The notes: generated by a model not told the origin, from the sequence alone. Positions 24,497 through 62,968 are shown, counted from the stretch's first letter. The stretch is 64,000 nucleotides of DNA from Acidobacteriota bacterium (GCA_029781975.1 JAKOVQ010000016.1:248001-312000); one strand, 5' to 3'. A program made the numbers and translations.

Positions 24497-24569
24497 GGGT
24501 CCGTAGCTCAGCGGTCAGAGCCACCGGCTCATAACCGGCGGGTCCTCGGTTCGAATCCGAGCGGACCCA
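24497..24569 (+). tRNA. tRNA with CAU anticodon (tRNA-Met, or tRNA-Ile2)
   Basis: GGGTCCG (24497-24503) pairs with CGGACCC (24562-24568), discriminator A at 24569. The D-arm is GCTC...GAGC, the anticodon loop is CTCATAA with CAT as anticodon, and the T-arm is CTCGGTTCGAATCCGAG. The first anticodon-stem pair is an A-C mismatch. The encoded 3' end reads ACCG, so CCA is added later. CAU is shared by elongator tRNA-Met, initiator and lysidine-modified tRNA-Ile2; the A1 position and initiator features exclude the initiator (it has a G-C first pair), but Met and Ile2 remain open. Confidence 0.9.
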
Positions 24570-24616
24570 CCGGCGGCGGGAGAGCTTTCAGGAGTGCCAC
24601 GAAGCAAGGAACGAAC

Positions 24617-36338: not shown

Positions 36339-37076
36339 ATGAAGGTCACGGTCAAGGACGCGGCGGAGCTCCTCGGGGTCTCGGAGAAGACGATCTACCG
36401 CTGGATCCGCTCCGGGACCCTCCCGGCCTACCAGGTCAGCGAACAGTACCGGTTCAACCGCGCCGAGCTCCTCGAGTGGGCGACCGCGAAGCGGATCAAC
36501 GTCTCGCCCCGCATCTTCGAGGAGCCCGAGGGGAGCGAGTCGCCGCTCCCCTCGGTCGCCGAAGCCCTCGCCCGCGGGGGGATCCACTACCGCGTCTCCG
36601 GCTCGCGCAAGGAGGACTCCCTCGCGGCGGTCGTCGAGATCCTCCCCCTGCCGCGGGAGGTCGACCGGGGCTTCCTCCTGAGCGTCCTCCTCGCCCGGGA
36701 GACGCTCGGCTCGACCGCGGTCGGCGACGGCATCGCGATCCCGCACGTGAGGAACCCGATCGTCCTCCACGTCGAGCAGCCCCTGATCGCCCTCTGCTTC
36801 CTCGAGGAGCCGGTGGACTTCGGCGCCCTCGACGGCGTGCCGGTGAGGATCCTCTTCACCCTGATCACCCCGACGGTCCGCGCGCACCTCCACCTCCTCT
36901 CGCGCCTGGCGTACCTCCTCCGGACGCCCCGCTTCCGCGACCTCCTCCTCGCGGAGGCGAGCCGCGAGGCGATCGGGACCGCGGCGCGCGACCTGGAGGC
37001 CGAGATCGACGCCCGGAGGGGCCGGGCCGTGGAGGCGCCGGCGGCGGCCGGGGCAGGGGCGGCGCAGGCCGGATGA
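36339..37076 (+). CDS. Excisionase-type HTH fused to PTS EIIA domain, putative operon regulator
   Basis: The 245-residue protein combines an N-terminal MerR/excisionase-like HTH (TVKDAAELLGVSEKTIYRWI, about 4-50) with a PTS EIIA type 2 (PtsN-like) domain (about 70-225). The phospho-acceptor histidine is kept (Ala-Ile-Pro-His136-Val-Arg-Asn). EIIA domains are phosphorylated by the PTS and often act as regulators. Here DNA binding could be tied to PTS phosphorylation or to a small-molecule signal. Its stop overlaps the next gene's start (ATGA), so it is cotranscribed with the membrane complex it probably controls. ATG with GAAGG upstream. The link to this complex is inferred from position. Confidence 0.82.
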   Translation: MKVTVKDAAELLGVSEKTIYRWIRSGTLPAYQVSEQYRFNRAELLEWATAKRINVSPRIFEEPEGSESPLPSVAEALARGGIHYRVSGSRKEDSLAAVVEILPLPREVDRGFLLSVLLARETLGSTAVGDGIAIPHVRNPIVLHVEQPLIALCFLEEPVDFGALDGVPVRILFTLITPTVRAHLHLLSRLAYLLRTPRFRDLLLAEASREAIGTAARDLEAEIDARRGRAVEAPAAAGAGAAQAG

Positions 37077-39094
37077 GCCCGGCGCCCCCCGTCGAGGCCG
37101 CGCTCCTCCTCGCCGCGATCGCCCTCTCCCTGGCGAGCGGGCTCCCGACCCTCGTCCGCCGCGACTCCGAGGGAGCCGCCCGGCTCGGGGCCCTCCTCGC
37201 CGTCGGGGCGGGGCTCGCGGCCCTCGCCGCCGCGATCCTCGGCCTCGCGGGCCGGACCGGGACCGTGGTCGACGCCGCCTGGCCCCTGCCGTTCGGCCGG
37301 CTCGTCCTGGCGGTCGACCCCCTCTCGGCGGCCTTCCTCGTCCCCGTCTCCGTCGTCTTCCCCCTCGCCTCGGTCTACGGCCTCGGGTACGAGCGGGGCG
37401 GGGCGAACGCGGCGGCGCGGCGGCGCACCATCCGGCTCTTCTCGGGCGCCCTCGCGGCTTCGATCGTCGTCGTGACGGTGGCGCGCGACGGCGTCGTCTT
37501 CCTCCTCGCCTGGGAGGCGATGGCGCTCTCGGCCTTCTTCCTCGTGACGGTGGAGCACGAGGAGGCGGGGATCCGGCGGGCGGGGTGGACCTACCTGGCG
37601 ACGACCCACGTCGGGACGCTCGCCCTGGTGGCGATGGTGCTCCTCCTCCGGCAGCGCGGCGGCGGCCTCGCGTGGCTCCCGCTCCCGGAAGGCCCCGCGG
37701 GGACCGACGCGGCGATCCTCCTCCTCGCGCTCGTCGGCTTCGGCGCGAAGGCCGGCCTCGCCCCGCTCCACTTCTGGCTCCCGGGCGCGCACGCGGGGGC
37801 CCCGAGCCACGTGTCGGCGCTCCTGTCGGCGGTGATGCTCAAGACGGGGCTCTACGGGATCCTCCGCGTCTCCGGGCTCCTGCCCCACGTCCCCGTGCCG
37901 CTCGCGGCGCTCGTCCTCCTCGCCGGGGCCGTGACGGCGCTCCTCGGCGTCGCCCTCGCGGCGGGGCAGGCGGACGTCAAGCGCGTCCTCGCCTACTCGA
38001 GCGTCGAGAACGTCGGGATCGTCGCGATGGGGATCGGCCTCGCCCTTTCGGGGCGCGCGGCGGGGAGGCCCGAGTGGGTCCTCCTCGGCGTGGCGGCCGC
38101 GGTCTTCCACACCTGGGTCCACGCCCTCTTCAAGGCCGCGCTCTTCCTGGGGGCGGGCTCGGTGGTCCACGCCACCGGGACGCGCGCCGTCGACAGGCTC
38201 GGCGGGCTCCTCCGGAGGATGCCGGCCACCGGGACGGCGTTCGTGGCGGGGGCGGCCGCGGCGGCCGTCCTCCCCCCGTTCGGCGGCTTCGCCGCCGAGT
38301 GGCTCCTCTACGCGGGGCTCCTCCGGGCCTTCCTCGACCCCGCCCACGGGCTCCTCCTCGCCCCCGTCGGCGTCGCGACGCTCGCGCTGGCGGGGGCGCT
38401 CGCCGTCACCGCGTTCGTCCGCCTCGCCGGGACGGTGCTCCTCGGCGAGCCCCGGAGCGCGGCGGCGGAGCGGGCGCACGAGTCCCCGCGGACGATGACG
38501 GCCCCCGCGATCCTCGCTGCCGCGGCCGCGGCGGCGGCCGGGCTCGCCCTCCCCTTCCTCGCCCCGGCGCTCGAGCGGGTGGCGTCGTCCTGGGGGGGCG
38601 GCAGCGAGGCGAGACTCGTCCCGACGCTCGCCGAGGCCGCGGCCCTCGGCCCGCTGACGGCCCTCCTCTCGTCCCTCGCGGCGTGCGTCCTCGTCGCCGC
38701 CCTCCTCGTCGCGCTCGCGTTCCGGCGGCGGGTGATCGCGGGGCGCCCGACGTGGGACTGCGGGTACGCCGCGCCCTCCGCGACGATGCAGTACACGGCG
38801 CGGTCCTTCTCGACCTGGGTCGCCGAGAGGCTCGCTCCTCCCCTCCTCGGGGTCCGGACCTCTCCCGGGCGCCCCTCGGGGCTCTTCCCGGCGCGCGTCG
38901 GCTTCGACTCGTCGACGCCGGAGCCGGTCGGGGAGAGGCTCCTCGAGCCGGCGCTCTCCCGCGCGGCGGACCGGCTCGGGCGGCTCCGCCGGTTCCAGCA
39001 CGGCCGGCTCAGCAGCTACCTCGTCGTCCCGGTGGCGACCCTCGTGGTCCTCCTCCTCTGGAACGCCCTCCGCGCCTTCTGGAGGCTGCCGTGA
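37073..39094 (+). CDS. hyfB: HyfB-like proton-translocating subunit, first copy
   Basis: The 673-residue membrane protein has some 14-16 helices and the NuoL/M/N antiporter core: LAWEAMALSAFFLV with a key glutamate, GFGAKAGLAPLHFWLPGAHAGAPSHVSALLSAVMLK with the pumping lysine, and YSSVENVGIVAMG. The C-terminus carries WDCGYAAPSATMQYT, typical of hydrogenase-4 subunit B rather than NuoL. It would move protons or sodium in a complex I-like machine. The ATG overlaps the regulator's stop (ATGA). A second, clearly related subunit follows with a GTGA overlap. Confidence 0.88.
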   Translation: MSPAPPVEAALLLAAIALSLASGLPTLVRRDSEGAARLGALLAVGAGLAALAAAILGLAGRTGTVVDAAWPLPFGRLVLAVDPLSAAFLVPVSVVFPLASVYGLGYERGGANAAARRRTIRLFSGALAASIVVVTVARDGVVFLLAWEAMALSAFFLVTVEHEEAGIRRAGWTYLATTHVGTLALVAMVLLLRQRGGGLAWLPLPEGPAGTDAAILLLALVGFGAKAGLAPLHFWLPGAHAGAPSHVSALLSAVMLKTGLYGILRVSGLLPHVPVPLAALVLLAGAVTALLGVALAAGQADVKRVLAYSSVENVGIVAMGIGLALSGRAAGRPEWVLLGVAAAVFHTWVHALFKAALFLGAGSVVHATGTRAVDRLGGLLRRMPATGTAFVAGAAAAAVLPPFGGFAAEWLLYAGLLRAFLDPAHGLLLAPVGVATLALAGALAVTAFVRLAGTVLLGEPRSAAAERAHESPRTMTAPAILAAAAAAAAGLALPFLAPALERVASSWGGGSEARLVPTLAEAAALGPLTALLSSLAACVLVAALLVALAFRRRVIAGRPTWDCGYAAPSATMQYTARSFSTWVAERLAPPLLGVRTSPGRPSGLFPARVGFDSSTPEPVGERLLEPALSRAADRLGRLRRFQHGRLSSYLVVPVATLVVLLLWNALRAFWRLP

Positions 39095-41145
39095 GCGCCG
39101 GGCTCGCCGCGCCGGCCCTCTCGCTCCCCCTCCTCCTGGCGCTCGTCTCGGCGGCGCTCTGGTCGGTGGCCGGGCTCCTCGGCGGGGGCCTCGAGCCGCG
39201 CCGGTCGGGGCCCAGGCTCTTCGCGGCCCTCGCGGTCGGCGCGGGGACGGTCGGTCTCGTCGGGGCGGGAGCGGCCTTCGTGGCCGGAGGAAGGGCGGTT
39301 CCGAGCGGGGCGGGCCTCGTCGGCCTCGACGCCCTCTCCGCCCTCTTCCTCGTCCCGATCTCGCTCACGGGGGGCGCCGTCGCGCTCTTCGGCCTCGGCT
39401 CGTGGCACGACGGCGAGCGGACGGGGCCGGGGCGGCGCCTCCGCCTCGCCCTCGGCCTGACGGTCGCGGCCCTCGTCCTCGTCGTCCTGGCGCGCCACGC
39501 CCTCGTCTTCCTCGTGGCGTGGGAGGTGATGGCCCTCGGCGCGTTCTTCCTCGTCGGGACGGAGGAGGACCGGCCCGGGACGCGCAGGGCCGCGTGGATC
39601 TACCTCGCGTCGGCCCACCTCGCGTTCCTCGCCCTCGCCGGCCTCTTCGCCCTCCTCCGCGCGACGGCCGGCTCCTTCCGCCTCGAGCCGCTCGCCGCCG
39701 GGATCGCCGCGACGCCGGCCGGGACGCTCCTCTTCTGGCTCGCGCTCGTCGGCTTCGGCCTGAAGGCGGGGCTCTTCCCGCTCCACGTCTGGCTGCCGCC
39801 GGCGCACGCGGCGGCACCGAGCCACGTCTCGGCGCTCCTCTCCGGCGTCGTCATCAAGATCGGGATCTACGGCCTCGTCCGCGTCCTGTCCCTCGTCCCC
39901 GACCCGCCGGCCTGGTGGGGAGGGACCGTCCTGGCGGTCGGCGCGGTGTCGGCGCTGACGGGGGTCCTCTCGGCGCTCGGACAGCACGACCTCAAGCGCC
40001 TCCTCGCCTACCACAGCGTCGAGAACGTCGGGATCATCGCCCTCGGCGTCGGCCTCGGGACGCTGGGGCGCACGCGGGGGGAGACGGCCTGGGTCCTCCT
40101 CGGGCTCTCCGGCGGGCTCCTCCACGTCGTCAACCACGGCCTCTTCAAGCCGCTCCTCTTCCTCTCGGCGGGGAACGTCGTCCACGCGACGGGGACGCGC
40201 GAGATCGACCGGCTCGGCGGCCTGGCGCGCCGGATGCCGGGGACGGCCCTCGCCTTCTCGGCCGGCGCCGTCGCCATCTGCGGCCTCCCCCCGCTGAACG
40301 GCTTCGTCAGCGAGTGGCTGGTCTACCTCGGCCTCGTCTCGACCGTCCTCGGCCGGCGCGTCCCCGACGCGGCCCTCGCCGCCCTCGCGGCCGCGGCCCT
40401 CGCCCTCGTCGGCGGCCTCGCGGTGGCCTGCTTCGTCAAGGCGTTCGGGGCGGTCTTCCTCGGGGAGGCGCGGACGGACGACGGGAGGGAGGCCCGCGAC
40501 GGCGGGGCGCTCCTCCTCGCGCCGATGGCGATCCTCGGCGCGGCCTGCCTCCTCGTCGGCCTCGGGCCCGCCCTCCTCGCCGGCCCCCTCGGCCGCGCCG
40601 TCTCGGTGGCGGCGGGGCCGTCCGCCGCCGCGCTCGGGCCGCTGGCCGCCGTGGCGCCGTTGAGGACGCTCGGGGCGGTCGCCTGGGCGATCGCCGGGAG
40701 CCTCGCCCTCGCGGCGTTCCTGGGGCTGCGCGCCCGCTCCGGTTTCCTCCGTGACCTGCGCCGCCCCGCCGGGGACGGCGACGCGGCGGCGTCGACGCCC
40801 GCCGTCACCTGGGACTGCGGCTACGCGGCGCCGACCCCGCGGATGCAATACACCTCGTCGTCGTTCGCCGCCACGCTCGTCCGGACGTTCCGCGGGGTCC
40901 TTTTCCCGCGCCACCACCGTCCCGACCTGACGGGCGGCGCCGTCCCGGAGCCCGGACGTCTCTTCCCCGCGCCGGCGACGTTCTCGAGCCACGTCCCCGA
41001 CGCGGTCCTCGACGTCGTCCTCGAGCCGGCCTTCGCGGGCGTCGCCCGCGTGGCGGCGCGTCTCCGGGCGATCCAGTCCGGCCGCGCGCAGACGTACCTC
41101 CTCTACGTGTTCGTCACCCTCGTCGTCCTCCTCCTGACCCTCTGA
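39091..41145 (+). CDS. hyfB: HyfB-like proton-translocating subunit, second copy
   Basis: The 684-residue protein is a paralogue of the preceding gene. It shares the same core (LVAWEVMALGAFFLVGTEE, GFGLKAGLFPLHVWLPPAHAAAPSHVSALLSG, YHSVENVGIIALGVG) and the C-terminal WDCGYAAPTPRMQYT and YLLYVFVTLVVLL. The two probably arose by tandem duplication and both keep the pumping residues. A complex with HyfB twice plus HyfF would have three antiporter-like modules, as complex I does. GTG start overlaps the previous stop. Confidence 0.88.
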   Translation: MSAGLAAPALSLPLLLALVSAALWSVAGLLGGGLEPRRSGPRLFAALAVGAGTVGLVGAGAAFVAGGRAVPSGAGLVGLDALSALFLVPISLTGGAVALFGLGSWHDGERTGPGRRLRLALGLTVAALVLVVLARHALVFLVAWEVMALGAFFLVGTEEDRPGTRRAAWIYLASAHLAFLALAGLFALLRATAGSFRLEPLAAGIAATPAGTLLFWLALVGFGLKAGLFPLHVWLPPAHAAAPSHVSALLSGVVIKIGIYGLVRVLSLVPDPPAWWGGTVLAVGAVSALTGVLSALGQHDLKRLLAYHSVENVGIIALGVGLGTLGRTRGETAWVLLGLSGGLLHVVNHGLFKPLLFLSAGNVVHATGTREIDRLGGLARRMPGTALAFSAGAVAICGLPPLNGFVSEWLVYLGLVSTVLGRRVPDAALAALAAAALALVGGLAVACFVKAFGAVFLGEARTDDGREARDGGALLLAPMAILGAACLLVGLGPALLAGPLGRAVSVAAGPSAAALGPLAAVAPLRTLGAVAWAIAGSLALAAFLGLRARSGFLRDLRRPAGDGDAAASTPAVTWDCGYAAPTPRMQYTSSSFAATLVRTFRGVLFPRHHRPDLTGGAVPEPGRLFPAPATFSSHVPDAVLDVVLEPAFAGVARVAARLRAIQSGRAQTYLLYVFVTLVVLLLTL

Positions 41146-41156
41146 AGGCAGCGAAG

Positions 41157-42077
41157 ATGCTCGACACGCTCGTCCAGACCCTTCTTCACGCCCTCGTCCT
41201 CGCGCTGGTCCCGCCGCTCCTGCCGGGGATCGTCAACAAGACGAAGGCCGTCTTCGCCGGGCGGACGGGCCCGCCGGTCCTGCAGCTCTACTACGACCTC
41301 GCCAAGCTGGCCGAGAAGGGGATCGTCCTCTCGCGGACGACCACCTGGGTCTTCTGGGCGGGCCCGCTCGCCGGCGTCGTGACGGCGCTCCTGGCCGGCC
41401 TCCTCGTCCCGCTCGGGACGCACCGGGCGCCGATCTCCTTCCCGGGGGACTTCGTCCTCTTCGCCTACCTCCTCGCGCTCGGCCGCTTCTTCACCGCCGC
41501 GGCGGCGCTCGACACCGGGTCCGCCTTCGAGGGGATGGGGGCCGCCCGCGAGGTGAGCTTCTCCCCGCTCGCCGAGCCGGCCCTCTTCTTCGGCTTCCTC
41601 GCGGCGGCGCGCGTCTCCGGCTCGCTCTCGCTCTCCGGCCTCCTGACCGGGGCCTGGACGTCGGGCTGGTTCGCCTCCGGCGGGGCGCTCCTCCTCGTCC
41701 TGGCGGCGTGGTTCGTCGTCCTCCTCGCCGAGACGTGCCGGATCCCGTTCGACGACCCGAACACCCACCTCGAGCTGACGATGATCCACGAGGTGATGGT
41801 CCTCGACCACGGCGGCCCGCTCCTCGGCCTCGTCCTCTACGGCTCGTCGGTGAAGCTCTTCGTCCTCGGGGCGCTCGTCGTCCGCCTCGCACTCCCCGTC
41901 CCCTCCGGCGGTCCGCTCCCCGCCTGGCTCCTCTTCGGCGCGGGGATGGCCGCGCTCGCGATCGGGATCGGCGTCGTCGAGTCGGTGATGGCGCGCCTGA
42001 GGCTCGTCCGGGTGCCGCAGCTCCTGGTCACGGCGTGCCTCCTCTCGGCCCTCGGGACCGTCCTGGTGATGAGGTGA
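41157..42077 (+). CDS. hyfC: HyfC/NuoH-like membrane-anchor subunit
   Basis: The 306-residue membrane protein has about eight helices and the complex I subunit 1 family motifs: GRTGPPVLQLYYDLAKL near the start, TGSAFEGMGAAREVSFS in the middle, and the acidic loop ETCRIPFDDPNTHLELTMIHE. This subunit joins the peripheral arm to the pumping arm and forms the quinone-site region in complex I. ATG start, 11 nt after the second HyfB. Its last codons run into a short octamer repeat (42066-42105). Confidence 0.9.
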   Translation: MLDTLVQTLLHALVLALVPPLLPGIVNKTKAVFAGRTGPPVLQLYYDLAKLAEKGIVLSRTTTWVFWAGPLAGVVTALLAGLLVPLGTHRAPISFPGDFVLFAYLLALGRFFTAAAALDTGSAFEGMGAAREVSFSPLAEPALFFGFLAAARVSGSLSLSGLLTGAWTSGWFASGGALLLVLAAWFVVLLAETCRIPFDDPNTHLELTMIHEVMVLDHGGPLLGLVLYGSSVKLFVLGALVVRLALPVPSGGPLPAWLLFGAGMAALAIGIGVVESVMARLRLVRVPQLLVTACLLSALGTVLVMR

Positions 42078-42105
42078 TGAGGTGTTGGGGTGACGAGGTG
42101 ATAAC
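42066..42105 (+). repeat. Five-unit octamer tandem repeat at the hyfC/hyfE junction
   Basis: Consecutive 8-mers read GTGATGAG, GTGATGAG, GTGTTGGG, GTGACGAG, GTGATAAC. The first units encode the end of HyfC and supply its TGA; the rest fill the gap before hyfE. The stretch is less GC-rich than its surroundings and contains several potential GTG/ATG starts and GAGG motifs. Confidence 0.7.
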
Positions 42106-42108
42106 GCG

Positions 42109-42750
42109 ATGAGCCGCTCCTTCGACCTCCTCCTCGTCGGCGTCATGCTCCTGAACTTCCTCGTCCTCGGGACGAGCCGGATCCGGGTCTGCATCCAGGC
42201 GGCGGCGCTCCAGGGGGTCCTCCTCGGCCTCCTCCCCCTCCTCGTCCACCGCTCCTTCGACTGGCGGACGGGCCTCGTGGCGGCGGGGACGCTGGCCGTG
42301 AAGGGGCTCGTGATCCCCTCCCTCCTCCTCAAGGCGATGCGCGACGTCCAGATCCGGCGGGAGGTGGAGCCGCACCTCGGCTTCGTCGCCTCCCTCTTCC
42401 TCGGGGGGATCGGGACCGGGCTGGCGCTCCTCTTCGCCGGCGGGCTCCCGCTGGCGCCGGAGCACGACGGGAGCCTCGTCGTCCCCGCCTCGCTCGCGAC
42501 GCTCCTGGCCGGCTTCCTCGTCCTGACGACGCGCCGCAAGGCGATCACGCAGGTGGTCGGCTACCTCCTCCTCGAGAACGGCGTCTTCGTCTTCGGCCTC
42601 CTCCTCCTCGAGGCGATGCCGTTCCTCGTCGAGGTCGGCGTCCTCCTCGACCTCTTCGTGGCGGTCTTCATCATGGGGATCGTCCTCGACCACATCCGGG
42701 CCGAGTTCTCGTCGCTCGACACCGAGCGGCTGGCCGAGCTGAAGGAGTAG
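42109..42750 (+). CDS. hyfE: HyfE-like membrane subunit
   Basis: The 213-residue membrane protein has about seven helices, and its C-terminal half corresponds to NuoK (QVVGYLLLENGVFVFGLLLL with the conserved glutamate). This matches HyfE of hydrogenase 4. It sits between HyfC and HyfF as in hyf operons. ATG start; the octamer repeat lies just upstream in place of a normal ribosome-binding site, although GAGGTG motifs within it could serve. Confidence 0.87.
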   Translation: MSRSFDLLLVGVMLLNFLVLGTSRIRVCIQAAALQGVLLGLLPLLVHRSFDWRTGLVAAGTLAVKGLVIPSLLLKAMRDVQIRREVEPHLGFVASLFLGGIGTGLALLFAGGLPLAPEHDGSLVVPASLATLLAGFLVLTTRRKAITQVVGYLLLENGVFVFGLLLLEAMPFLVEVGVLLDLFVAVFIMGIVLDHIRAEFSSLDTERLAELKE

Positions 42751-42752
42751 CG

Positions 42753-44195
42753 GTGCCCGCCCTCGTCCTCGTCGCCCTCCCGTTCGCCGCGGCCGTGGTC
42801 GCGGCCCTCCTCCGGTCGGACCGCGCCCGCGCGGCCCTCCTCCCCGCGACGGCGACCCTCCACCTCGCCCTCACCGCGGTCGCGCTCCTCCACCGCGTCG
42901 AGCTCAAGCCGGGCGTGTGGCTCCAGCTCGACGCGCTCGGCGCCGTCGTCCTCGGCGTCCTCTCCGGGCTCTTCTTCCTCGCCGCGCTCTACGCCCCGGG
43001 CTACCTCGCCCTCCGCTCCGACCGCCCGAACCGGGTCTTCTGCGTCGGCCTCCTCGGCTTCCTCGGCGGCGCCACGCTCCTCGTCCTCGCGCAGCACCTC
43101 GGCCTGATGTGGGTCGCGCTCGAGGCGACGACCCTCTCGACGGGGCCGCTCATCTACTTCAACAAGAACCCGCGGTCGATCGAGGCGACCTGGAAGTACC
43201 TGATGATCGGGTCGGTCGGCGTCGCCCTCGCCCTCCTCGGCTCGCTCTTCGTCGGCTACGCCGCGTACCTCGGGGGGCACGACGTCTCCCTCGTCTTCCG
43301 CTCCCTCCTCGACGAGGCGCCGCGCCTCTCGCGGCCGTGGCTCAGGGCGGGCTTCGTCTTCCTCCTCGTCGGCTACGGGACGAAGATCGGCGTCGCGCCG
43401 CTCCACAGCTGGAAGCCGGACGCCTACGGCGAGGCGCCGGGCCTCGTCGGGATGCTCCTCGCGGGCGGGATGACGAGCGCCGCCTTCCTCGCCCTGATGC
43501 GCGTCTACCGGATCGTCGCCGCGGCGGGCGAGGGGGCGTTCGCCCGCGAGCTCCTCCTCGCCCTCGGGGTCCTCTCGCTCGCGACGGCCGCGGTCTTCAT
43601 GGTCCGCCAGCGCGACCTCAAGCGGCTCCTCGCCTACTCGAGCGTCGAGCACATGGGGCTCCTCCTCATCGGGGTGGGGATCGGCGGGGCGGGGGTCTTC
43701 GGGGCGCTCTTCCACCTCGTCAACAACGCCTTCACGAAGGGGGTCCTCTTCCTCGCCCTCGGCAACATCCACCGCGCCTACGGCGGCAAGACGCTCGACG
43801 AGGTGACCGGGGCCCTCCGGCGGCTGCCGCTCTCGGCGGGGCTCTTCCTCGCCGGCTTCTTCGCCGTCACCGGCTCGCCCCCGTTCGGCCCCTTCATGAG
43901 CGAGCTGACGATCCTGACGGCGGCCTTCTCGGCAGGACGGCTCCTCCTGGCAGCGGCGATCCTCGCCCTCCTCGCGGCCGTCTTCCTCGGCATGGGGGGG
44001 ACCGTCCTGGCGGCCCTGCAGGGCGAGCCCCCGCCCGAGCCGGTCCGGGAGGCGTTCCGGGACACCCCCTCTCGGACGATCCCGATCGTCCTCGCCCTCG
44101 GGGTGGTCCTCCTCCTCGGCCTGACGATCCCCGCGCCCCTCCGCTCCCTCCTGACGACCGCGGCGACCGACCTCGGCGGAAAGGGGCTGCCGTGA
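42753..44195 (+). CDS. hyfF: HyfF-like proton-translocating subunit
   Basis: The 480-residue membrane protein has the antiporter core in a shorter form: WVALEATTLSTGPLI, GYGTKIGVAPLHSWKPDAYGEAPG, RDLKRLLAYSSVEHMG and FHLVNNAFTKGVLFLALGNI. This is HyfF/NuoN-like. GTG start, 2 nt after hyfE. Its stop overlaps the GTG of the large-subunit gene (GTGA). Confidence 0.9.
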   Translation: MPALVLVALPFAAAVVAALLRSDRARAALLPATATLHLALTAVALLHRVELKPGVWLQLDALGAVVLGVLSGLFFLAALYAPGYLALRSDRPNRVFCVGLLGFLGGATLLVLAQHLGLMWVALEATTLSTGPLIYFNKNPRSIEATWKYLMIGSVGVALALLGSLFVGYAAYLGGHDVSLVFRSLLDEAPRLSRPWLRAGFVFLLVGYGTKIGVAPLHSWKPDAYGEAPGLVGMLLAGGMTSAAFLALMRVYRIVAAAGEGAFARELLLALGVLSLATAAVFMVRQRDLKRLLAYSSVEHMGLLLIGVGIGGAGVFGALFHLVNNAFTKGVLFLALGNIHRAYGGKTLDEVTGALRRLPLSAGLFLAGFFAVTGSPPFGPFMSELTILTAAFSAGRLLLAAAILALLAAVFLGMGGTVLAALQGEPPPEPVREAFRDTPSRTIPIVLALGVVLLLGLTIPAPLRSLLTTAATDLGGKGLP

Positions 44196-45745
44196 GCGGC
44201 CCGCGCCTCGCGACGCTCCGGAACGGCTCGGCCCTGCCGCTCGCCGCGGTCCCGGACCTCCCGTTCGAGGACCTCCGCGACGCGGTCGTCCGCGAGACCG
44301 CCGAGGGAAACCGCCTCGTCTCCTTCTTCGCCTCCGTGCCCGAGCCGGCCTCCCCGGCTTCCTCGCGCGCCGGGGGCGAGGTCGAGCTCCTCGCCGTCGT
44401 CGCGGACGACGAGGAGGGGACGCTCGGGGTGGGGCGCGCGCGGCTCGAGGGCGAGCGGTTCCCGTCCCTCACCCCGGCCTGCCCGCAGGCCCACTGGTTC
44501 GAGCGGGAGATCGCCGAGCAGGCCGGCGTCGTCCCGGCCGGCCACCCCTGGCTCAAGCCGATCCGGTTCCACTCCTCGTGGCGGGAGGGGCACGACGCGT
44601 GGGGCCGCCCCGCTCTCGCCCACCCCGTCCCGGGCGTCACCGACTTCTACCGGGTCGAGGGGGAGGAGGTCCACGAGGTGGCGGTCGGCCCGGTCCACGC
44701 CGGCGTCATCGAGCCGGGGCACTTCCGCTTCCAGTGCCACGGCGAGGAGGTCTTCCACCTCGAGATCTCGCTCGGCTACCAGCACCGCGACGTCGAGCGC
44801 GCCCTGGCCGGCGGCCCGCACAAGGGGACGGTCCCGATCGTCGAGACGATCGCGGGCGACACGACGGTCGCGCACGCCTGGGCGTACGCCGAGGTCGTCG
44901 AGGCCCTCGCCGGCGTCGCAGTCCCGGCCCGCGCCGGGGCGGTCCGCGGCGTCGCGCTGGAGCTCGAGCGGCTGGCGAACCACGTCGGCGACCTCGGCGC
45001 CCTCGCCAACGACGTCGGCTTCCTCCCGACCGCCTCCTTCTGCGGCCGGATCCGCGGGGACTTCCTCAACATGACCGCGCTCCTGTGCGGCAGCCGCTTC
45101 GGCCGCGGCCTGATCCGGCCCGGCGGGGTGGGCTTCGCCCTCGAGCCGGAGCGGGCCGGAAGGCTCGCCGAGCGGCTCGTCGCGGGGCGAAGGGACGCCC
45201 TCGAGGCGATCGGCCTCCTCTGGGAGACCGCGTCGGTGACGGCGCGGTTCGAGGGGACGGGCGTCGTCTCGCCGAAGGACGCCGAGGAGATCGGGCTCGT
45301 CGGCCCCGCCGCGCGCGCGTGCGGCATCGGGCGCGACGTGAGGCACGACCACCCGCACGGCATCTACCGCTACGTCCACCTCCCCGTCGTCACGGCGAGC
45401 ACCGGCGACGTGGCGGCCCGCGCGGCCGTCCGAGCTGCCGAGGTGGAGCGGTCGGCCGACTTCGTCGCCGAGCAGCTCGCGGCGCTCCCCGAGACCCCCG
45501 CGAGGGTCCCGGTCGGCCCGCTGGCCGCCGACAGCCTCGCGGTGGCGCTCGTCGAGGGGTGGCGCGGCGAGGTCTGCCACGTGGCGCTGACGGACGGCGA
45601 CGGGCGCTTCCGGCGCTACAAGGTGACCGACCCCTCGTTCCACAACTGGTTCGGCCTCGCGCTGGCGCTCCGGGGCGAGGAGATCTCCAACTTCCCGCTG
45701 TGCAACAAGAGCTTCAACCTCTCCTACTGCGGACACGACCTGTGA
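44192..45745 (+). CDS. hyfG: HyfG-like large subunit (NuoC-NuoD fusion) without NiFe ligands
   Basis: The 517-residue protein fuses a NuoC-like domain (about 10-150) to a NuoD/hydrogenase large-subunit domain (about 165-517; FHLEISLGYQHRDVERA, GRIRGDFLNM). In hydrogenases the first ligand motif reads ERICGICSxxH; here the aligned stretch is ETIAGDTTVAH (218-228), with both cysteines gone. The last motif, DPCYSC in HyfG/HycE, is replaced by NLSYCG near the C-terminus, and there is no cleavable tail. The protein therefore should not hold nickel and is most like the energy-converting hydrogenase-related (Ehr) subunits. Its partner substrate, perhaps ferredoxin, quinone or formate dehydrogenase electrons, is unknown. 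Confidence 0.85.
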   Translation: MSGPRLATLRNGSALPLAAVPDLPFEDLRDAVVRETAEGNRLVSFFASVPEPASPASSRAGGEVELLAVVADDEEGTLGVGRARLEGERFPSLTPACPQAHWFEREIAEQAGVVPAGHPWLKPIRFHSSWREGHDAWGRPALAHPVPGVTDFYRVEGEEVHEVAVGPVHAGVIEPGHFRFQCHGEEVFHLEISLGYQHRDVERALAGGPHKGTVPIVETIAGDTTVAHAWAYAEVVEALAGVAVPARAGAVRGVALELERLANHVGDLGALANDVGFLPTASFCGRIRGDFLNMTALLCGSRFGRGLIRPGGVGFALEPERAGRLAERLVAGRRDALEAIGLLWETASVTARFEGTGVVSPKDAEEIGLVGPAARACGIGRDVRHDHPHGIYRYVHLPVVTASTGDVAARAAVRAAEVERSADFVAEQLAALPETPARVPVGPLAADSLAVALVEGWRGEVCHVALTDGDGRFRRYKVTDPSFHNWFGLALALRGEEISNFPLCNKSFNLSYCGHDL

Positions 45746-45755
45746 GCCGGCGCCG

Positions 45756-46541
45756 ATGATCAAGACCCTCCTCGCCCGCGCCCACCAGGGGCACCGGACC
45801 CTCGCCTGGCCCGACGGCCCTCCGCCGGAGCTTCCCGACCGCTTCCGCGGCCTCCCGGCGATCGACGCCGCCCGCTGCCCCGACGGCTGCCGCGCCTGCG
45901 CCGACGCCTGCCCGACCGAGGCGGTCTCCCTCTCGCCCGCGGGCCCGCGGGTCGACCTCGGCCGCTGCCTCTTCTGCCCCGAGTGCGCGGAGGCGTGCCC
46001 CGAGGGGGCGATCTCCTTCACGCGGGACTACCGCCTCTCCGTGCGGCGGCGCGAGGAGCTCGTCTTCTCCGGGGAGCCGCTCCCCCTGGCGACCAGCCTC
46101 GAGACCGAGCTCCGCCGGCTCTTCGGCCGCTCCCTCCGCCTCCGGCAGGTGAGCGCGGGCGGGTGCAACGCCTGCGAGGCGGACGTGAACGTCCTCTCGA
46201 CCCTCGTCTGGGACGTCGGGCGCTTCGGGATCCAGATGGTCGCCTCGCCGCGCCACGCCGACGGCCTCCTGATCACCGGCCCCGTCACGCGCAACATGGA
46301 GCTGGCGCTCCGCAAGACGTGGGACGCGGTGCCCGAGCCGAAGATCGTCATCGCGGTCGGGGCCTGCGCCATCGCGGGCGGGCCGTTCTGGCAGAGCCCG
46401 GAGCAGCTGGGCGGCGCGGCGGCGGTCGTCCCGGTCGACCTCTTCGTCCCGGGCTGCCCGCCCCACCCCGCGACGATTCTCGACGGGCTCCTCCGCCTCC
46501 TCGGGCGGCTCGAGAAGGACGGGCGCGTCGCCGCCCGCTGA
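45756..46541 (+). CDS. hyfI: Ferredoxin fused to HyfI/NuoB-like small subunit
   Basis: The 261-residue protein joins two functions usually split between HyfH and HyfI. Residues 36-90 are a two-cluster ferredoxin (Cys41, 45, 48, 52 and 71, 74, 77, 81). Residues 115-255 are the small subunit with its proximal 4Fe-4S ligands Cys137 and Cys140 (GGCNACE), Cys204 (GACAIAGG) and Cys234 (PGCPPHP). Together they can make an electron wire to the large subunit's site. ATG start, 10 nt after the large subunit. It closes the cluster; hypA follows after 49 nt. Confidence 0.9.
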   Translation: MIKTLLARAHQGHRTLAWPDGPPPELPDRFRGLPAIDAARCPDGCRACADACPTEAVSLSPAGPRVDLGRCLFCPECAEACPEGAISFTRDYRLSVRRREELVFSGEPLPLATSLETELRRLFGRSLRLRQVSAGGCNACEADVNVLSTLVWDVGRFGIQMVASPRHADGLLITGPVTRNMELALRKTWDAVPEPKIVIAVGACAIAGGPFWQSPEQLGGAAAVVPVDLFVPGCPPHPATILDGLLRLLGRLEKDGRVAAR

Positions 46542-46590: not shown

Positions 46591-47034
46591 ATGCACGAGC
46601 TGAGCCTGGTGACCGAGGTCTACCGGACCGCCCGCCGGGCCGTCGACGCCCGCGGCCCGCACCGGATCGAGGTGGTCCGCCTCGCCGTCGGCGAGCTCTC
46701 CGCCGTCGAGCCCGCCCTCCTCGCGTTCGCGTGGGAGGCGGTGACGGCGGGGACGCCGGACGAGGGGTCCCGCCTCGAGGTCGACTTCCGGCCGGCGCGC
46801 CAGACCTGCACCGGGTGCGGGGCGTCGCCCGAGCGGGCCGTGGGGAGCTGGCTCAGGGTCTGCGGCGCCTGCGGCGGCCTCCTCTCCGTCGAGGGGGGGG
46901 ACGAGCTCGACGTCGTGTCGGTCACGTTCGAGGACCCGGCGGCGGAGGAGGCTGCGGAGGAGACGGCGGAGGAGGCGGCGGACGACGAGGCGGACGACGG
47001 GACCGGCGGACCCCCTTCCTCAGCCGGCTCCTGA
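46591..47034 (+). CDS. hypA: Hydrogenase nickel incorporation protein HypA
   Basis: The 147-residue protein begins MHELSLV, with the nickel-binding His2, and has the zinc site as two CxxC pairs (CTGCG and CGACGG). HypA delivers nickel to NiFe hydrogenase large subunits together with HypB. The normal length is about 115; here a highly acidic tail of some 30 residues (EEAAEETAEEAADDEADD) follows. Its 3' end overlaps hypF, which runs the other way, by 15 bp. Presence of hypA is at odds with the neighbouring large subunit, which lacks nickel ligands, so it likely serves another enzyme elsewhere. Confidence 0.92.
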   Translation: MHELSLVTEVYRTARRAVDARGPHRIEVVRLAVGELSAVEPALLAFAWEAVTAGTPDEGSRLEVDFRPARQTCTGCGASPERAVGSWLRVCGACGGLLSVEGGDELDVVSVTFEDPAAEEAAEETAEEAADDEADDGTGGPPSSAGS

Positions 47035-49410
47035 GGAGCGCAGCATCGCCGCAGCGACGGCGACCTGGCCGAGGGCGATCCCGCCGTCGTTCGGCGGGAC
47101 CCGGTGGTGGACGAGGACCCGGAACCCCTCCTCCTCGAGGCGCGAGACGGCCTTCTCGAGGAGGACCCGGTTCTGGAAGCAGCCGCCGGTCAGCGCGACG
47201 GCGGCCTCCCCCGAGGCGCGCGCCGCCGCGACGATCCCCTCGACGAGGGCGCCGTGGAAACGGGCCGCGCGCACCTCGCGCCTCACGCCGCGCGCGCCGT
47301 CGTCGAGGAGCGCGGCGAGGAGCGGTGCCCAGTCGAGGGTCGAGGGCGAGCCGGGCGGGCCCGGCCGGAGCGGGAAGGGATAGCTCCCCTTCTCGTCCGG
47401 GTCGACGAGCGCCTCGAGCGCCGTCGCGGCCTGCCCCTCGTGGTCGGCCTTCGGGTGGAGGCCGAGGAGCGCCGCGACCCCGTCGAAAAGACGCCCCGCG
47501 CTCGTCGTGACCGGGCTGTTCAGGCCGCGGGCGAGGAGCGTCCCGAGGAGGGCCCGCTCGGCCTCGGTGAAGAGGGGGTCGGCCGCCGCGCCGGCCGCGC
47601 CGCCGATCCCCGCCTCGTGGAGGAGGGCGAGGGCCGCGCGCCGAGGCTCGCGGACGGCGGCCTCGCCGCCGGGGAGCCGGAACGGGCGGAGGTGGGCGAC
47701 GCGGCGGACCGAGTCGGCCGAGCCGGCGAGGAACTCGCCCCCCCAGACCGTCCCGTCGGTCCCGTGTCCCGTCCCGTCCCAGGCGACGCCGAGGGCGCTC
47801 CCCTCGAACCCGTTCTCCGAAAGGCACGAGGCGAGGTGCGCGTGGTGGTGCTGGACGGCGACGAGCCGGAGCCGCCCCTCGGCGGCGGCGCGGCGGAGGA
47901 CGGGCGGGACGGCGAACGCCCCCTCGCCACCGGCCGCGGCGCGCGCCCACTGCGTGGAGAGGTACGACGGGTGGAGGTCGTGGGCGATCGCGACCGGCTC
48001 GGCCTCGTAGAGCCGGAGGAGGTCGGCGATCACCCGCTCGAACGCGCCCAGCGCCTCGGGCGTCTCGAGGTCGCCGACGTGCTGCGAGACGAAGACCTGG
48101 CTGCCGAAGCCGAGCGCGACCGCTCCCTTCAGGTGAGCCCCGACGCCGAGGAGGGGAGGGAGCGGGCCGGCCACGGGGACCGGGAGCGGCGCGAAGCCGC
48201 GCGAGCGACGGAGGACGGCGGCCTCGCCACGGAAGACCCAGGCGAGGCTGTCGTCCGCGTGCCGCTCGATGGGGCGGTCGTGGACGAGGAACAGTTCGGC
48301 GAGGCCGCGCAGCCGCTCCAGCGCCTCGCGCTCGTCGATGGCGATCGGCTCGTCGCTCCGGTTCCCGCTGGTGGCGACGAGGGGCGTCGCGAACGGCTCG
48401 AGGAGGAGGTGGTGGAGCGGGGTGGCGGCGAGCATCAGGCCGAGGCGCGGGCTCTCGGGGGCGACGTTGGGAGCGACGCTGGGAGCGACTGCCGATCTGT
48501 CGCCGTCCTCGGCGCCCCCGCCACACCCGCCGTGCCGCGCCAGGAGGAGGATCGGCGCCTCGGGCGAGGCGAGGAGCGCGGCCTCGGACTCGGAGACCGC
48601 GCAGAGGGCCCGGGCCGCCGCGACGTCGCGGACCATCAGGGCGAACGGCTTCTCGCGCCGGACCTTCCCGGCACGCAGCCGCGCCACCGCCCCCTCGTCG
48701 CGCGCGTCGCAGACGAGGTGGAAGCCGCCGAGCCCCTTCACCGCGACGACCTTTCCGCCGCGGATCGCCGCGATCGCCCCCTGGAGCGCCTCCTCCCCGG
48801 CCGCCAGGACCGTCCCGTCGCCTTCCCAGAGCGCGAGGCGCGGCCCGCAGGCGGGGCAGGCCGTCGGCTGCGCGTGGAACCTCCGGTCGCGCGGCTCCTC
48901 GTACTCGGCGCGGCAGGCGTCGCAGAGGGCGAAGCCCGCCATCGTCGTGTTCGGCCGGTCGTACGGGAGGGCCCTGACGATCGTGAAGCGGGGCCCGCAG
49001 TCGGTGCAGTTGAGGAAGGGATAGCGGAACCTTCGGTCGCGCGGGTCGAAGAGCTCGTCCCGGCAGGCGTCGCAGGTGGCGAGGTCGGGAAGGACCGCCG
49101 CGCTCTTCGTCCCCCCCGCGTCGCTCGCGACGATCCGGAAGCCCGCGAAGCCGGCCGGAGGGAGGTCCGCGTGGCGGAGGGCTCGGATCACGGCGCGCGG
49201 TGGAGGCGCGGCGACGAGCCGGGCGAGGAACCGCTCGACGGCGGAGGACGCCCCTTCCACCTCGAGCCGCACCCCCTCCGTCCCGTTGAGGACCCACCCG
49301 GCGAGCCCCTCGTCGGCCGCGAGCCGGTAGACGTACGGGCGGAAGCCGACCCCCTGGACCGCCCCCTCCACCTCCACCCTCAGCCGCCGCCGGGGCGGCG
49401 CCCCGCTCAC
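47020..49410 (-). CDS. hypF: Carbamoyltransferase HypF
   Basis: The 796-residue protein makes the cyanide ligand precursor of NiFe hydrogenases with HypE. Domains in order: acylphosphatase (about 8-95, EGAVQGVGFRPYVYRLA), two zinc fingers (CDACRDE, CTDCGPRF, CDACRAE, CPACGPRLA), YrdC-like domain (about 200-390), and the Kae1-like carbamoyl transferase (HDLHPSYLSTQW, VQHHHAHLAS, GVAWDGTGHG). All parts are present, so it should be active. GTG or ATG at 49410, 4 nt after selB, in the same operon. Confidence 0.95.
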   Translation of the reverse strand: MSGAPPRRRLRVEVEGAVQGVGFRPYVYRLAADEGLAGWVLNGTEGVRLEVEGASSAVERFLARLVAAPPPRAVIRALRHADLPPAGFAGFRIVASDAGGTKSAAVLPDLATCDACRDELFDPRDRRFRYPFLNCTDCGPRFTIVRALPYDRPNTTMAGFALCDACRAEYEEPRDRRFHAQPTACPACGPRLALWEGDGTVLAAGEEALQGAIAAIRGGKVVAVKGLGGFHLVCDARDEGAVARLRAGKVRREKPFALMVRDVAAARALCAVSESEAALLASPEAPILLLARHGGCGGGAEDGDRSAVAPSVAPNVAPESPRLGLMLAATPLHHLLLEPFATPLVATSGNRSDEPIAIDEREALERLRGLAELFLVHDRPIERHADDSLAWVFRGEAAVLRRSRGFAPLPVPVAGPLPPLLGVGAHLKGAVALGFGSQVFVSQHVGDLETPEALGAFERVIADLLRLYEAEPVAIAHDLHPSYLSTQWARAAAGGEGAFAVPPVLRRAAAEGRLRLVAVQHHHAHLASCLSENGFEGSALGVAWDGTGHGTDGTVWGGEFLAGSADSVRRVAHLRPFRLPGGEAAVREPRRAALALLHEAGIGGAAGAAADPLFTEAERALLGTLLARGLNSPVTTSAGRLFDGVAALLGLHPKADHEGQAATALEALVDPDEKGSYPFPLRPGPPGSPSTLDWAPLLAALLDDGARGVRREVRAARFHGALVEGIVAAARASGEAAVALTGGCFQNRVLLEKAVSRLEEEGFRVLVHHRVPPNDGGIALGQVAVAAAMLRSSGAG

Positions 49411-57509: not shown

Positions 57510-58379
57510 ATGCCCCGCCCGCGCGTCGCCGACCTCCTCTCTCTCGTCGTCTTCGCGCACACGCTCTTCGCCCTCCCGTTCGCCCTCCTGGCCGCGGTCC
57601 TCGCCGCGGACGGCATCCCCCCCCTCCGGACCCTCGGCTGGATCCTCGTCGCGATGGCGGGCGCCCGCTCGGCGGCGATGGCGTTCAACCGGATCGTCGA
57701 CCGCGACGTCGACGCCCTCAACCCCCGGACGAGCCGGCGCGAGATCCCCGCGGGCGTCGTCTCCGTCCGGGCCGCCGCGCTCTTCTGCGTGGCGTCGGCC
57801 GCCCTCTTCGTCGTGGCGGCGGGGCAGCTGAACCGGCTCTGCCTCCTCCTGTCGCCGGTGGCCCTCCTCGTCGTCCTGGGCTACTCGTTCGCCAAGAGGT
57901 TCACGGCCGCGGCGCACCTCTTCCTCGGCCTCGCCCTCGCCATCGCGCCGGTCGGGGCGTGGGTGGCCGTCCGCGGGAGCTTCGCCTGGACGCCCGTCCT
58001 CCTCGGCCTGGCGGTCCTGACGTGGGTGGCCGGCTTCGACGTGATCTACAGCCTCCAGGACGAGGCGTTCGACCGCGCCCACGGCCTGAGGTCGCTCCCC
58101 GTCCTCCTCGGCGCGCGCGGGGCCCTCGTCGCCTCCACCCTCCTCCACGCGGGGACGCTGGCGCTCCTCTACGCGGTCTTCCTCGCGGCGGGCGGAGGCT
58201 GGCTCTTTGGCGCGGGGGTCGTCCTGGCGGGGCTCTTCCTCGTCCGGCAGCACCGCCTCGTCACGCCGAGCGACCTGTCGCGCGTCGACGCGGCCTTCTT
58301 CACGGCGAACGGCTGGCTCTCGGTCGGCTTCTTCGCCTTCGGCGCGGCCGACGTCCTCGCCCGGGGCGTTTTTCGCTAA
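57510..58379 (+). CDS. ubiA: UbiA family polyprenyltransferase
   Basis: The 289-residue membrane protein has about eight helices and both Asp-rich motifs: NRIVDRDVDALNPRT (first) and DVIYSLQDEAFDRAHGL (second). It attaches a polyprenyl chain to an aromatic acid in quinone synthesis. With ubiX nearby, the candidate reactions are 4-hydroxybenzoate prenylation (ubiquinone) or the MqnP step of the futalosine menaquinone route; the latter fits many acidobacteria, as inference. ATG right after TAGACT. A leaderless deoxynucleoside kinase gene follows after 12 nt. Confidence 0.9.
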   Translation: MPRPRVADLLSLVVFAHTLFALPFALLAAVLAADGIPPLRTLGWILVAMAGARSAAMAFNRIVDRDVDALNPRTSRREIPAGVVSVRAAALFCVASAALFVVAAGQLNRLCLLLSPVALLVVLGYSFAKRFTAAAHLFLGLALAIAPVGAWVAVRGSFAWTPVLLGLAVLTWVAGFDVIYSLQDEAFDRAHGLRSLPVLLGARGALVASTLLHAGTLALLYAVFLAAGGGWLFGAGVVLAGLFLVRQHRLVTPSDLSRVDAAFFTANGWLSVGFFAFGAADVLARGVFR

Positions 58380-62554: not shown

Positions 62555-62583
62555 ACGGTAGGGACCGGACGGGGGGGCGTCAA
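62555..62583 (-). promoter_or_regulatory. Promoter of cutA
   Basis: On the minus strand TTGACG (62583-62578), 17 bp, TACCGT (62560-62555), ending 6 nt before the ATG. This is the clearest leaderless promoter with both hexamers. Confidence 0.65.
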
Positions 62584-62590
62584 GGCGTGG

Positions 62591-62596
62591 TACCCT
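62591..62596 (+). promoter_or_regulatory. -10 element of tmRNA
   Basis: TACCCT lies 11 nt before the mature tmRNA 5' end. Confidence 0.45.
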
Positions 62597-62607
62597 CGAT
62601 CCGACGT

Positions 62608-62968
62608 GGGGGCGCACCGGTTTCGACGGGGCCTTCCGCGATCGAGGAGCACGCCGAGCACGCCGTTCGCCTCGTAAAAACGACGGCAAAATAAAAGCTG
62701 CCAACGACAGCGAACTCGCTCTCGCGGCCTAAGACGCCGTGACGGGTTCCGGGGAGCTCGCCCGTCGCGCCCCGGGACTCGACGCAAAATTCGGGCTGGG
62801 GACGCCCTCGCCGCCTGAAGGGACGCCCCGAGATCGCCAGGCTCGCCTCCGTGTCTGGTCGCCCGGTCCCATGGGCGCGCGAGGTCAGAAAAAAAGCCCG
62901 GGCTGAGCGTGGAGAATCTCGACGTAGGAGCGCATCGGACGGGGGTTCGACTCCCCCCGCCTCCACCA
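62608..62968 (+). ncRNA. ssrA: tmRNA
   Basis: The 361-nt RNA has a tRNA-like end: 5' GGGGGCG pairs with CGCCTCC before ACCA (CCA encoded, 62966-62968), and GGTTTCGACGG follows at the 5' side with GGTTCGACTCC as T-arm. The tag frame reads GCC AAC GAC AGC GAA CTC GCT CTC GCG GCC TAA (62700-62732), giving ANDSELALAA after the tRNA-borne alanine; a preceding GCT at 62697 might add one more Ala. It frees stalled ribosomes and marks the product for proteolysis. One-piece form, with a pseudoknot-rich middle. Confidence 0.95.

Follow-up and report, generated by a model that had tools for sequence, protein, structure and literature searches.

A nickel-ligand-free Ehr gene set in an Acidobacteriota bacterium, with a large-subunit site maintained by strong selection

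Introduction

The closest described relatives of the locus studied here are the energy-converting hydrogenase-related (Ehr) complexes of Geobacter, whose genes are given as ehrA-1, A-2, B, C, D, L and S (Coppi, 2005, cited through PMC13194489 and PMC7894505). In the literature, Ehr lacks the NiFe ligands and has no assigned function, and HydDB leaves it outside the hydrogenases. Ehr is abundant on formate in Geobacter proteomics, production of H2 from formate through Ehr has been suggested for Geobacter sulfurreducens (PMC7894505), and a 2026 paper calls the Geobacter complex already non-functional (PMC13194489). An Ehr large subunit (EhrL) with four cysteines was noted earlier in Desulfotomaculum ruminis (PMC3569383). 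A sequence-only reading of the present locus had stated that the electron donor and acceptor of Ehr are not established, in agreement with the literature that we found.

Better-understood members of the superfamily provide points of comparison. Formate hydrogenlyase and hydrogenase-4 (HycE, HyfG; PDB 7z0s) offer the nearest solved fold and the same membrane subunit types. MBS of Pyrococcus furiosus (PDB 6u8y) is nickel-free like Ehr and pumps ions, as Ehr is predicted to do, and the feeding by ferredoxin that is shown for MBS is likewise predicted for Ehr; the MBS proximal cluster has three Cys, a motif is shortened, and there is no proton path (PMC7684303). Complex I (NuoCD, NuoD) shares with Ehr the fold of its core, the charge axis, and the subunits of the pump.

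Here, we describe an Ehr locus within a window of 64,000 nucleotides (the whole stretch of DNA that was analysed) from an Acidobacteriota bacterium. The Ehr class was already known; what is new is the evidence for selection, the ancestry, a conserved regulator, and an apparent independence of quinone.

Results

Gene content and class membership

Positions 36,339 to 46,541 hold eight plus-strand genes encoding a regulator, five membrane subunits (two HyfB-like, one HyfC/NuoH-like, one HyfE-like, and one HyfF-like), a large subunit, and a small subunit (Table 1). The sequence-only reading had taken this whole interval as an Ehr-type complex. Its limits coincide with the start of the HTH-EIIA regulator gene and the end of the small-subunit gene, and the description applies to the seven subunit genes, the first gene encoding a regulator and no subunit.

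The locus is almost certainly a complete gene set of the Ehr class. Pfam, NCBIfam, and locus comparison gave a group-4-hydrogenase-like subunit set that includes antiporter-like membrane subunits, and the NiFe-binding cysteines are missing from the large subunit, both in alignment and among homologues. Subunit types and order (A1-A2-B-C-D-L-S) are those of the Geobacter Ehr loci, which bears out the assignment to Ehr. In four Geobacter-type loci (L019, L021, L028, and L066) the large subunit is about 60% identical to that of the window and carries the same AGDT and NLSYCG sites; together with L079 these loci share motifs and order with the window, and the Geobacter-type loci included in our tree fall in the window's clade. 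Orthology to the founding Geobacter Ehr is drawn through these loci, the G. sulfurreducens sequences GSU0739-45 lying outside the set compared. In part of the Geobacter loci one HyfB-like gene and the EIIA gene run divergently from the others, whereas in the window all genes lie on one strand.

Table 1. Genes and former nickel-binding motifs of the Ehr locus (positions in the window).
Feature	Coordinates	Strand	Evidence
HTH (excisionase-like) + PTS EIIA(Ntr)-like regulator	36339..37076	+	Pfam HTH_17 66.9 bits, PTS_EIIA_2 79.8 bits
EhrA1, HyfB/NuoL-M-like antiporter subunit	37073..39094	+	NCBIfam hydrogenase 4 subunit B 510 bits
EhrA2, second HyfB-like antiporter subunit	39091..41145	+	NCBIfam hydrogenase 4 subunit B 550 bits
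EhrB, HyfC/HycD/NuoH-like subunit	41157..42077	+	Pfam NADHdh 113 bits
EhrC, HyfE-like membrane subunit	42109..42750	+	NCBIfam hydrogenase 4 membrane subunit 82.8 bits
EhrD, HyfF/NuoN-like antiporter subunit	42753..44195	+	NCBIfam hydrogenase 4 subunit F 306 bits
EhrL, large subunit, NuoC-NuoD fusion, 517 aa	44192..45745	+	Pfam Complex1_49kDa 111 bits
Ex-L1 nickel motif, now AGDT (EhrL 221-224)	44852..44863	+	Alignment to HycE
Ex-L2 nickel motif, now NLSYCG (EhrL 509-514), within near-invariant 501-517	45716..45733	+	Alignment to HycE
EhrS, small subunit	45756..46541	+	Oxidored_q6 100 bits, Fer4_7 30.8 bits

The former nickel site is altered in a uniform way

The large subunit had been read as carrying AGDT in place of CGIC and NLSYCG in place of DPCYSC, with no C-terminal tail, and each of these points held. 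An HMM alignment to E. coli HycE pairs AGDT with CGIC exactly at residues 221-224 and pairs NLSY, the first part of residues 509-514, with DPCY, and EhrL stops three residues past G514, a tail being present in 0/81 homologues. In the multiple alignment, HycE C241, C244, C531, and C534 face EhrL A221, T224, S511, and G514, and the L1/L2 CxxC pairs of group 4 [NiFe] hydrogenases are absent from EhrL. The Pfam scan gave no NiFeSe_Hases (PF00374) match for EhrL, which also lies outside the five matches to that family in its own genome. Conservation of the four cysteines at shifted positions, the outcome that would speak against a lost site, is not seen in the alignment: L1 is without a cysteine and C513 is offset by one residue from a ligand position, so the ligands have not merely moved. 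Just 2 of 81 homologues have a cysteine in L1, and never more than one; at the ligand positions of L2 no homologue has any. Other EhrL cysteines are invariant or nearly so, namely C504 and C513 near the site and C182, C284, and C299 elsewhere.

A one-genome-per-species scan returned hundreds of relatives, of which the best 80, from many phyla, were kept. Across these and the window (81 sequences), G222, D223, and H228 of EhrL do not vary, every C-terminus fits [DN]FP[LI][CN]NKSFxLSYCGxD[LQ], and residues 501-514 form the least variable 14-residue segment of the protein (mean entropy of 0.05 bits vs 1.28 overall). The dN/dS ratio ranges from 0.09 to 0.22 in eight close pairs. Because identical AGDT and NLSYCG states recur in 80 homologues of many phyla, they are far from a chance outcome, and the pattern of substitution shows strong selection on the altered site, with no decay.

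The pocket around the vacated site

In HycE, roles of the proton-donor Glu, the buried path, and the canopy residues were described with the FHL structure (PMC9474812). EhrL keeps the aligned proton donor (E174; HycE E193), the buried path (H264, R375, and E417; HycE H284, R395, and E437), and the canopy Arg (R458), and the canopy Asp of complex I and hydrogenases has become Asn509. The Arg preceding L1 is replaced by Thr219 in most sequences of the window's own clade (Ehr1, below) and only there; C182, C299, and C513 hardly occur outside that clade, and part of a sister clade, Ehr2, shares C284 and C504.

The AlphaFold model of isolated EhrL has a mean pLDDT of 88.9, falling below 50 in residues 507-517, the last 11 of the site. 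Its best fold match is HycE (7z0s_E; Z 38.8, rmsd 2.6, 476 residues), and comparison with NuoD gave a Z of about 33 over 340 residues. As for the His, Tyr, and Asp of the well-established quinone site of complex I, EhrL D274 aligns with the invariant Asp, and both the His of the beta1-beta2 loop and the Tyr at L1 are absent, being Ile173 and Gly222 in 82/82 sequences.

The window's complex differs from formate hydrogenlyase in lacking the NiFe ligands, the canopy Asp, and the C-terminal tail, and its locus holds neither a protease nor a HycB/FdhF partner. It differs from complex I in lacking the quinone-site His and Tyr, the canopy Asp, and the NADH module (NuoE-F-G), which is absent from the operon and from the conserved flanks.

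Pump-type subunits and electron wiring are intact in their key residues

All membrane subunits and the small subunit had been judged functional in appearance, and residue mapping and conservation agree, with key residues intact in each. EhrA1 retains E148, K226, K257, and E409 (mapped on NuoM/HycC) and EhrA2 retains E145, K225, K256, and E408; both match NuoM in its Glu-Lys-Lys-Glu set. EhrD retains E124 and K211, with Thr in place of the TM8 Lys. Most E-channel residues are present in EhrB (Y104, R110, E132, E140, E192, E206, and E212) and conserved among 70 sequences, and most pump residues are conserved across 70-92 homologues.

EhrS begins with a ferredoxin-like domain for two [4Fe-4S] clusters, to which a NuoB/HycG-like domain is fused; the proximal cluster of the latter is fully ligated by conserved cysteines in hydrogenase spacing (C137xxC140, C204, and C234). 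The three-Cys proximal cluster of MBS is accordingly not found in EhrS; MBS is further unlike Ehr in keeping two of the four Cys of the nickel site and in having no proton path.

Ancestry of the cysteine-free site

A tree was built from group 4 large subunits of the window's phylum, collected with HycE and then with a closer relative. The window falls in a single clade, Ehr1 (support 100/100), which together with Ehr2 (site motifs ISGDT and NKSFNLSYSGNDL) makes up a cysteine-free group (99/98). Next out are three tailless sequences with four cysteines (CGxC; NKSFELCYxCTDR), and beyond them a third cysteine-free clade, Ehr3, followed by HycE and HyfG. Support is weak (88/54) for the branch uniting the four-cysteine clade with Ehr1 and Ehr2 to the exclusion of Ehr3.

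The four-cysteine clade (L096, L098, and L141) resembles Ehr1 in its C-terminal NKSF frame, the missing tail, and the gene order hyfB-C-E-F-L-S, but has CGxC and CYxC; its small subunit has fewer ferredoxin cysteines, and, unlike in Ehr1, an EIIA gene was not seen in the loci examined. In most Ehr2 loci the small subunit comes first and is without the ferredoxin domain. Given a nearest four-cysteine clade that shares the NKSF frame, the gene order, and the lack of a tail, and given that a four-cysteine site is unlikely to re-arise at identical positions, loss is the simpler history, and the nickel site was probably lost from a membrane [NiFe] hydrogenase ancestor, once or twice. The four-cysteine EhrL of Desulfotomaculum ruminis may be of the same type as this clade.

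A conserved regulator and no conserved partner

The HTH-EIIA gene is the conserved first gene of the locus: of 62 relatives with room for it, 61 have it ahead of the operon or in divergent orientation to it. Its phospho-acceptor His136 is kept in at least 93%. None of the Ehr2, Ehr3, and four-cysteine loci examined yielded such a gene, and we found no report of its association with an Ehr operon in the open-access literature.

HypA lies 50 bases downstream of the window's operon, and a HypF gene also adjoins it. A nickel chaperone link was considered and set aside, since the adjacency is not conserved: HypA neighbours the operon in just one of 80 relatives, and no locus examined from the same family or order has it there. 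The genome itself encodes three true NiFe hydrogenases that require HypA and HypF; after each comes an ORF that by eye resembles a protease. The downstream HypA and HypF genes are thus unrelated to the Ehr complex. Clustering of 1884 flanking ORFs revealed no partner gene conserved across the family; the flanks share no partner dehydrogenase, flavin subunit, or hyp gene, nor, across 80 loci, a formate dehydrogenase or HycB-type relay.

Quinone markers in the genomes of carriers

Gene content was compared between 39 Ehr1-bearing genomes and 14 control genomes. For the carriers, absences come mostly from MAGs and draft genomes and refer to known quinone pathways; read in this way, 16 of the 39 carriers have no MqnC/MqnE and no MenD (family-level scores). 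MenB exceeded the cut-off in none of the 16 (G415 came close), CydA is missing from 13, and RnfC is present in 10. In six of the 16 (G401, G411, G414, G415, G429, and G433) the sole NuoD-like match is EhrL itself; all six have RnfC and none has CydA, and in the three whose loci were examined in full (G401, G414, and G429) the operon is complete. MqnC, CydA, and two sets of complex I genes are present in the window's own genome, from which RnfC is missing.

The UbiA family was rejected as a quinone marker, matching 39/39 genomes and 14/14 controls. Genes for 2-oxoacid:ferredoxin oxidoreductase occur in all 39 carriers and discriminate poorly, as they are common in controls too (11/14).

From this gene content, a quinone seems unlikely to be an obligatory partner of the Ehr class. 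It may still be the partner in the window's own organism, the survey covering known quinone pathways in draft genomes, and some other quinone pathway in the marker-free carriers is possible. A search of the open-access literature returned no prior report of quinone-free Ehr carriers.

Discussion

We propose that Ehr is a ferredoxin-linked, proton-coupled ion pump whose acceptor would be neither H2 nor necessarily a quinone, a reading to which we give an even chance. A diffusible low-potential carrier, most likely ferredoxin, would deliver electrons to the two-cluster domain of EhrS, from where they would pass through the proximal [4Fe-4S] cluster to the vacated pocket of EhrL. There, a proton-coupled two-electron reaction would take place on a bound substrate other than H2, with a quinone not required, and this reaction, perhaps reversible in direction, would drive ions through EhrB and the antiporter-like EhrA1, EhrA2, and EhrD. 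The HTH-EIIA regulator probably controls the operon. The use of ferredoxin is suggested by the fused EhrS domain and by widespread POR genes.

The match of D274 to the quinone-site Asp, and the menaquinone marker and complex I in the window's own genome, run against this main reading. They belong more naturally to a ferredoxin:(mena)quinone oxidoreductase, in effect a pared-down complex I that lacks the NADH module and binds quinone in the former nickel pocket. The nearness of the EhrL fold to NuoD and the menaquinone marker genes of many other carriers also fit such an enzyme; the absence of the quinone-site His and Tyr from all sequences compared, the change of the canopy Asp to Asn, and the 16 carriers without menaquinone markers, six of them without complex I as well, do not, and we regard it as possible, if doubtful.

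A bolder form of the quinone-independent redox pump can be imagined for Ehr1, in which C182, C299, and C513 (with C284 and C504) would form a thiol, disulfide, or new metal site that replaces the nickel chemistry, and a dedicated EIIA regulator would link the pump to the phosphotransferase network; we consider this rather unlikely. Reduction of polysulfide or another disulfide, after the example of the Pyrococcus MBS, is improbable. MBS is the solved nickel-free member of the superfamily and is fed by ferredoxin (PMC7684303), and C504 and C513, which hardly vary, flank the EhrL pocket in sequence, but at the MBS cluster the motif is shortened and the ligands are three Cys, where EhrS retains the CxxC spacing and four Cys, and the proton path that EhrL has is missing from MBS.

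Very improbable is the view that Ehr is still a hydrogenase, or yields H2 from formate together with a formate dehydrogenase: its abundance on formate in Geobacter and the adjoining HypA and HypF genes are outweighed by the loss of all four ligands in the window and of nearly all in its homologues, by a HypA/HypF adjacency that is not conserved and is accounted for by the genome's true hydrogenases, and by conserved flanks without a formate dehydrogenase. A non-functional relic on its way to being lost, the status that PMC13194489 gives to the complex of Geobacter strain KN400, is hardly credible either. In its favour one may cite that H2 chemistry is not expected and that two ehr genes acquired missense mutations during long growth on electrodes (PMC13194489), but the low dN/dS, a C-terminal motif almost invariant across phyla, and intact pump residues make that claim hard to maintain.

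Ehr is widespread and stands between hydrogenases and complex I. For the proposed ferredoxin-linked pump, the nickel-bearing sister clade provides a before-and-after comparison in which the few changed residues can be named, and the apparently quinone-free carriers are a place in which the quinone hypothesis could be decided directly. With selection, ancestry, a conserved regulator, and apparent quinone independence in hand, the question of which reaction Ehr carries out becomes a testable one.

Cysteine-free large subunits and their four-cysteine relatives

The large subunits closest to Ehr are those of L096, L098, L141 and, in partial form, L115, which have intact CGxC and CYxC motifs together with the NKSF frame (the C-terminal segment around the second nickel motif, L2) and lack a C-terminal tail; these are probably true hydrogenases that do not need an endopeptidase. 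Within Ehr1, the window's own cysteine-free clade (AGDT / NLSYCG), two sequences keep a cysteine at the first position of nickel motif L1, and the one from Pontiella (L054, CGDT) is perhaps a leftover or a back-mutation.

Two further sets are cysteine-free. Ehr2 (L097, L105, L112-L114, L119, L144-L165) carries ISGDT / NLSYSGNDL, and in most loci read its small-subunit gene comes first and lacks the ferredoxin domain. The third subfamily (L116, L118, L121) is divergent, with a different gene order and the C-terminus QDFPI..ATFGLS..E.DR.

Genomic setting

In the Geobacter-type Ehr1 loci L050, L065, L066, L070, L072, L073 and L079, the EIIA-like regulator gene is divergent from the remaining genes, together with a HyfB-like gene where the contig reaches. 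A small MazF/PemK-like ORF, judged by eye, lies near the regulator in eight loci.

By raw counts without kinship correction, RnfC occurs in 10 (G400, G401, G407, G411-G415, G429, G433) of 16 Ehr1 carrier genomes without menaquinone markers and is absent from the five other carriers searched for it, all menaquinone-marker positive, including the window genome. The window's UbiA-family prenyltransferase gene lies ~11 kb from the operon.

Features of the window, and the Pontiella gene in its own locus
Feature	Position	Strand	Remark
tRNA-Met gene	24497-24571	+	
HypA-like gene	46591-47034	+	directly downstream of Ehr operon
HypF-like gene	47020-49410	-	directly downstream of operon, beyond HypA-like gene
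UbiA-family prenyltransferase gene	57570-58310	+	198 bits
tmRNA gene	62573-62968	+	tag AANDSELALAA
L054 Ehr1 large subunit	10001-11512		CGDT at L1

The HypA-like and HypF-like genes stand tail to tail with a 15-base overlap, and their adjacency to the operon is not conserved among related operons; they probably serve three other NiFe hydrogenases of the same genome.
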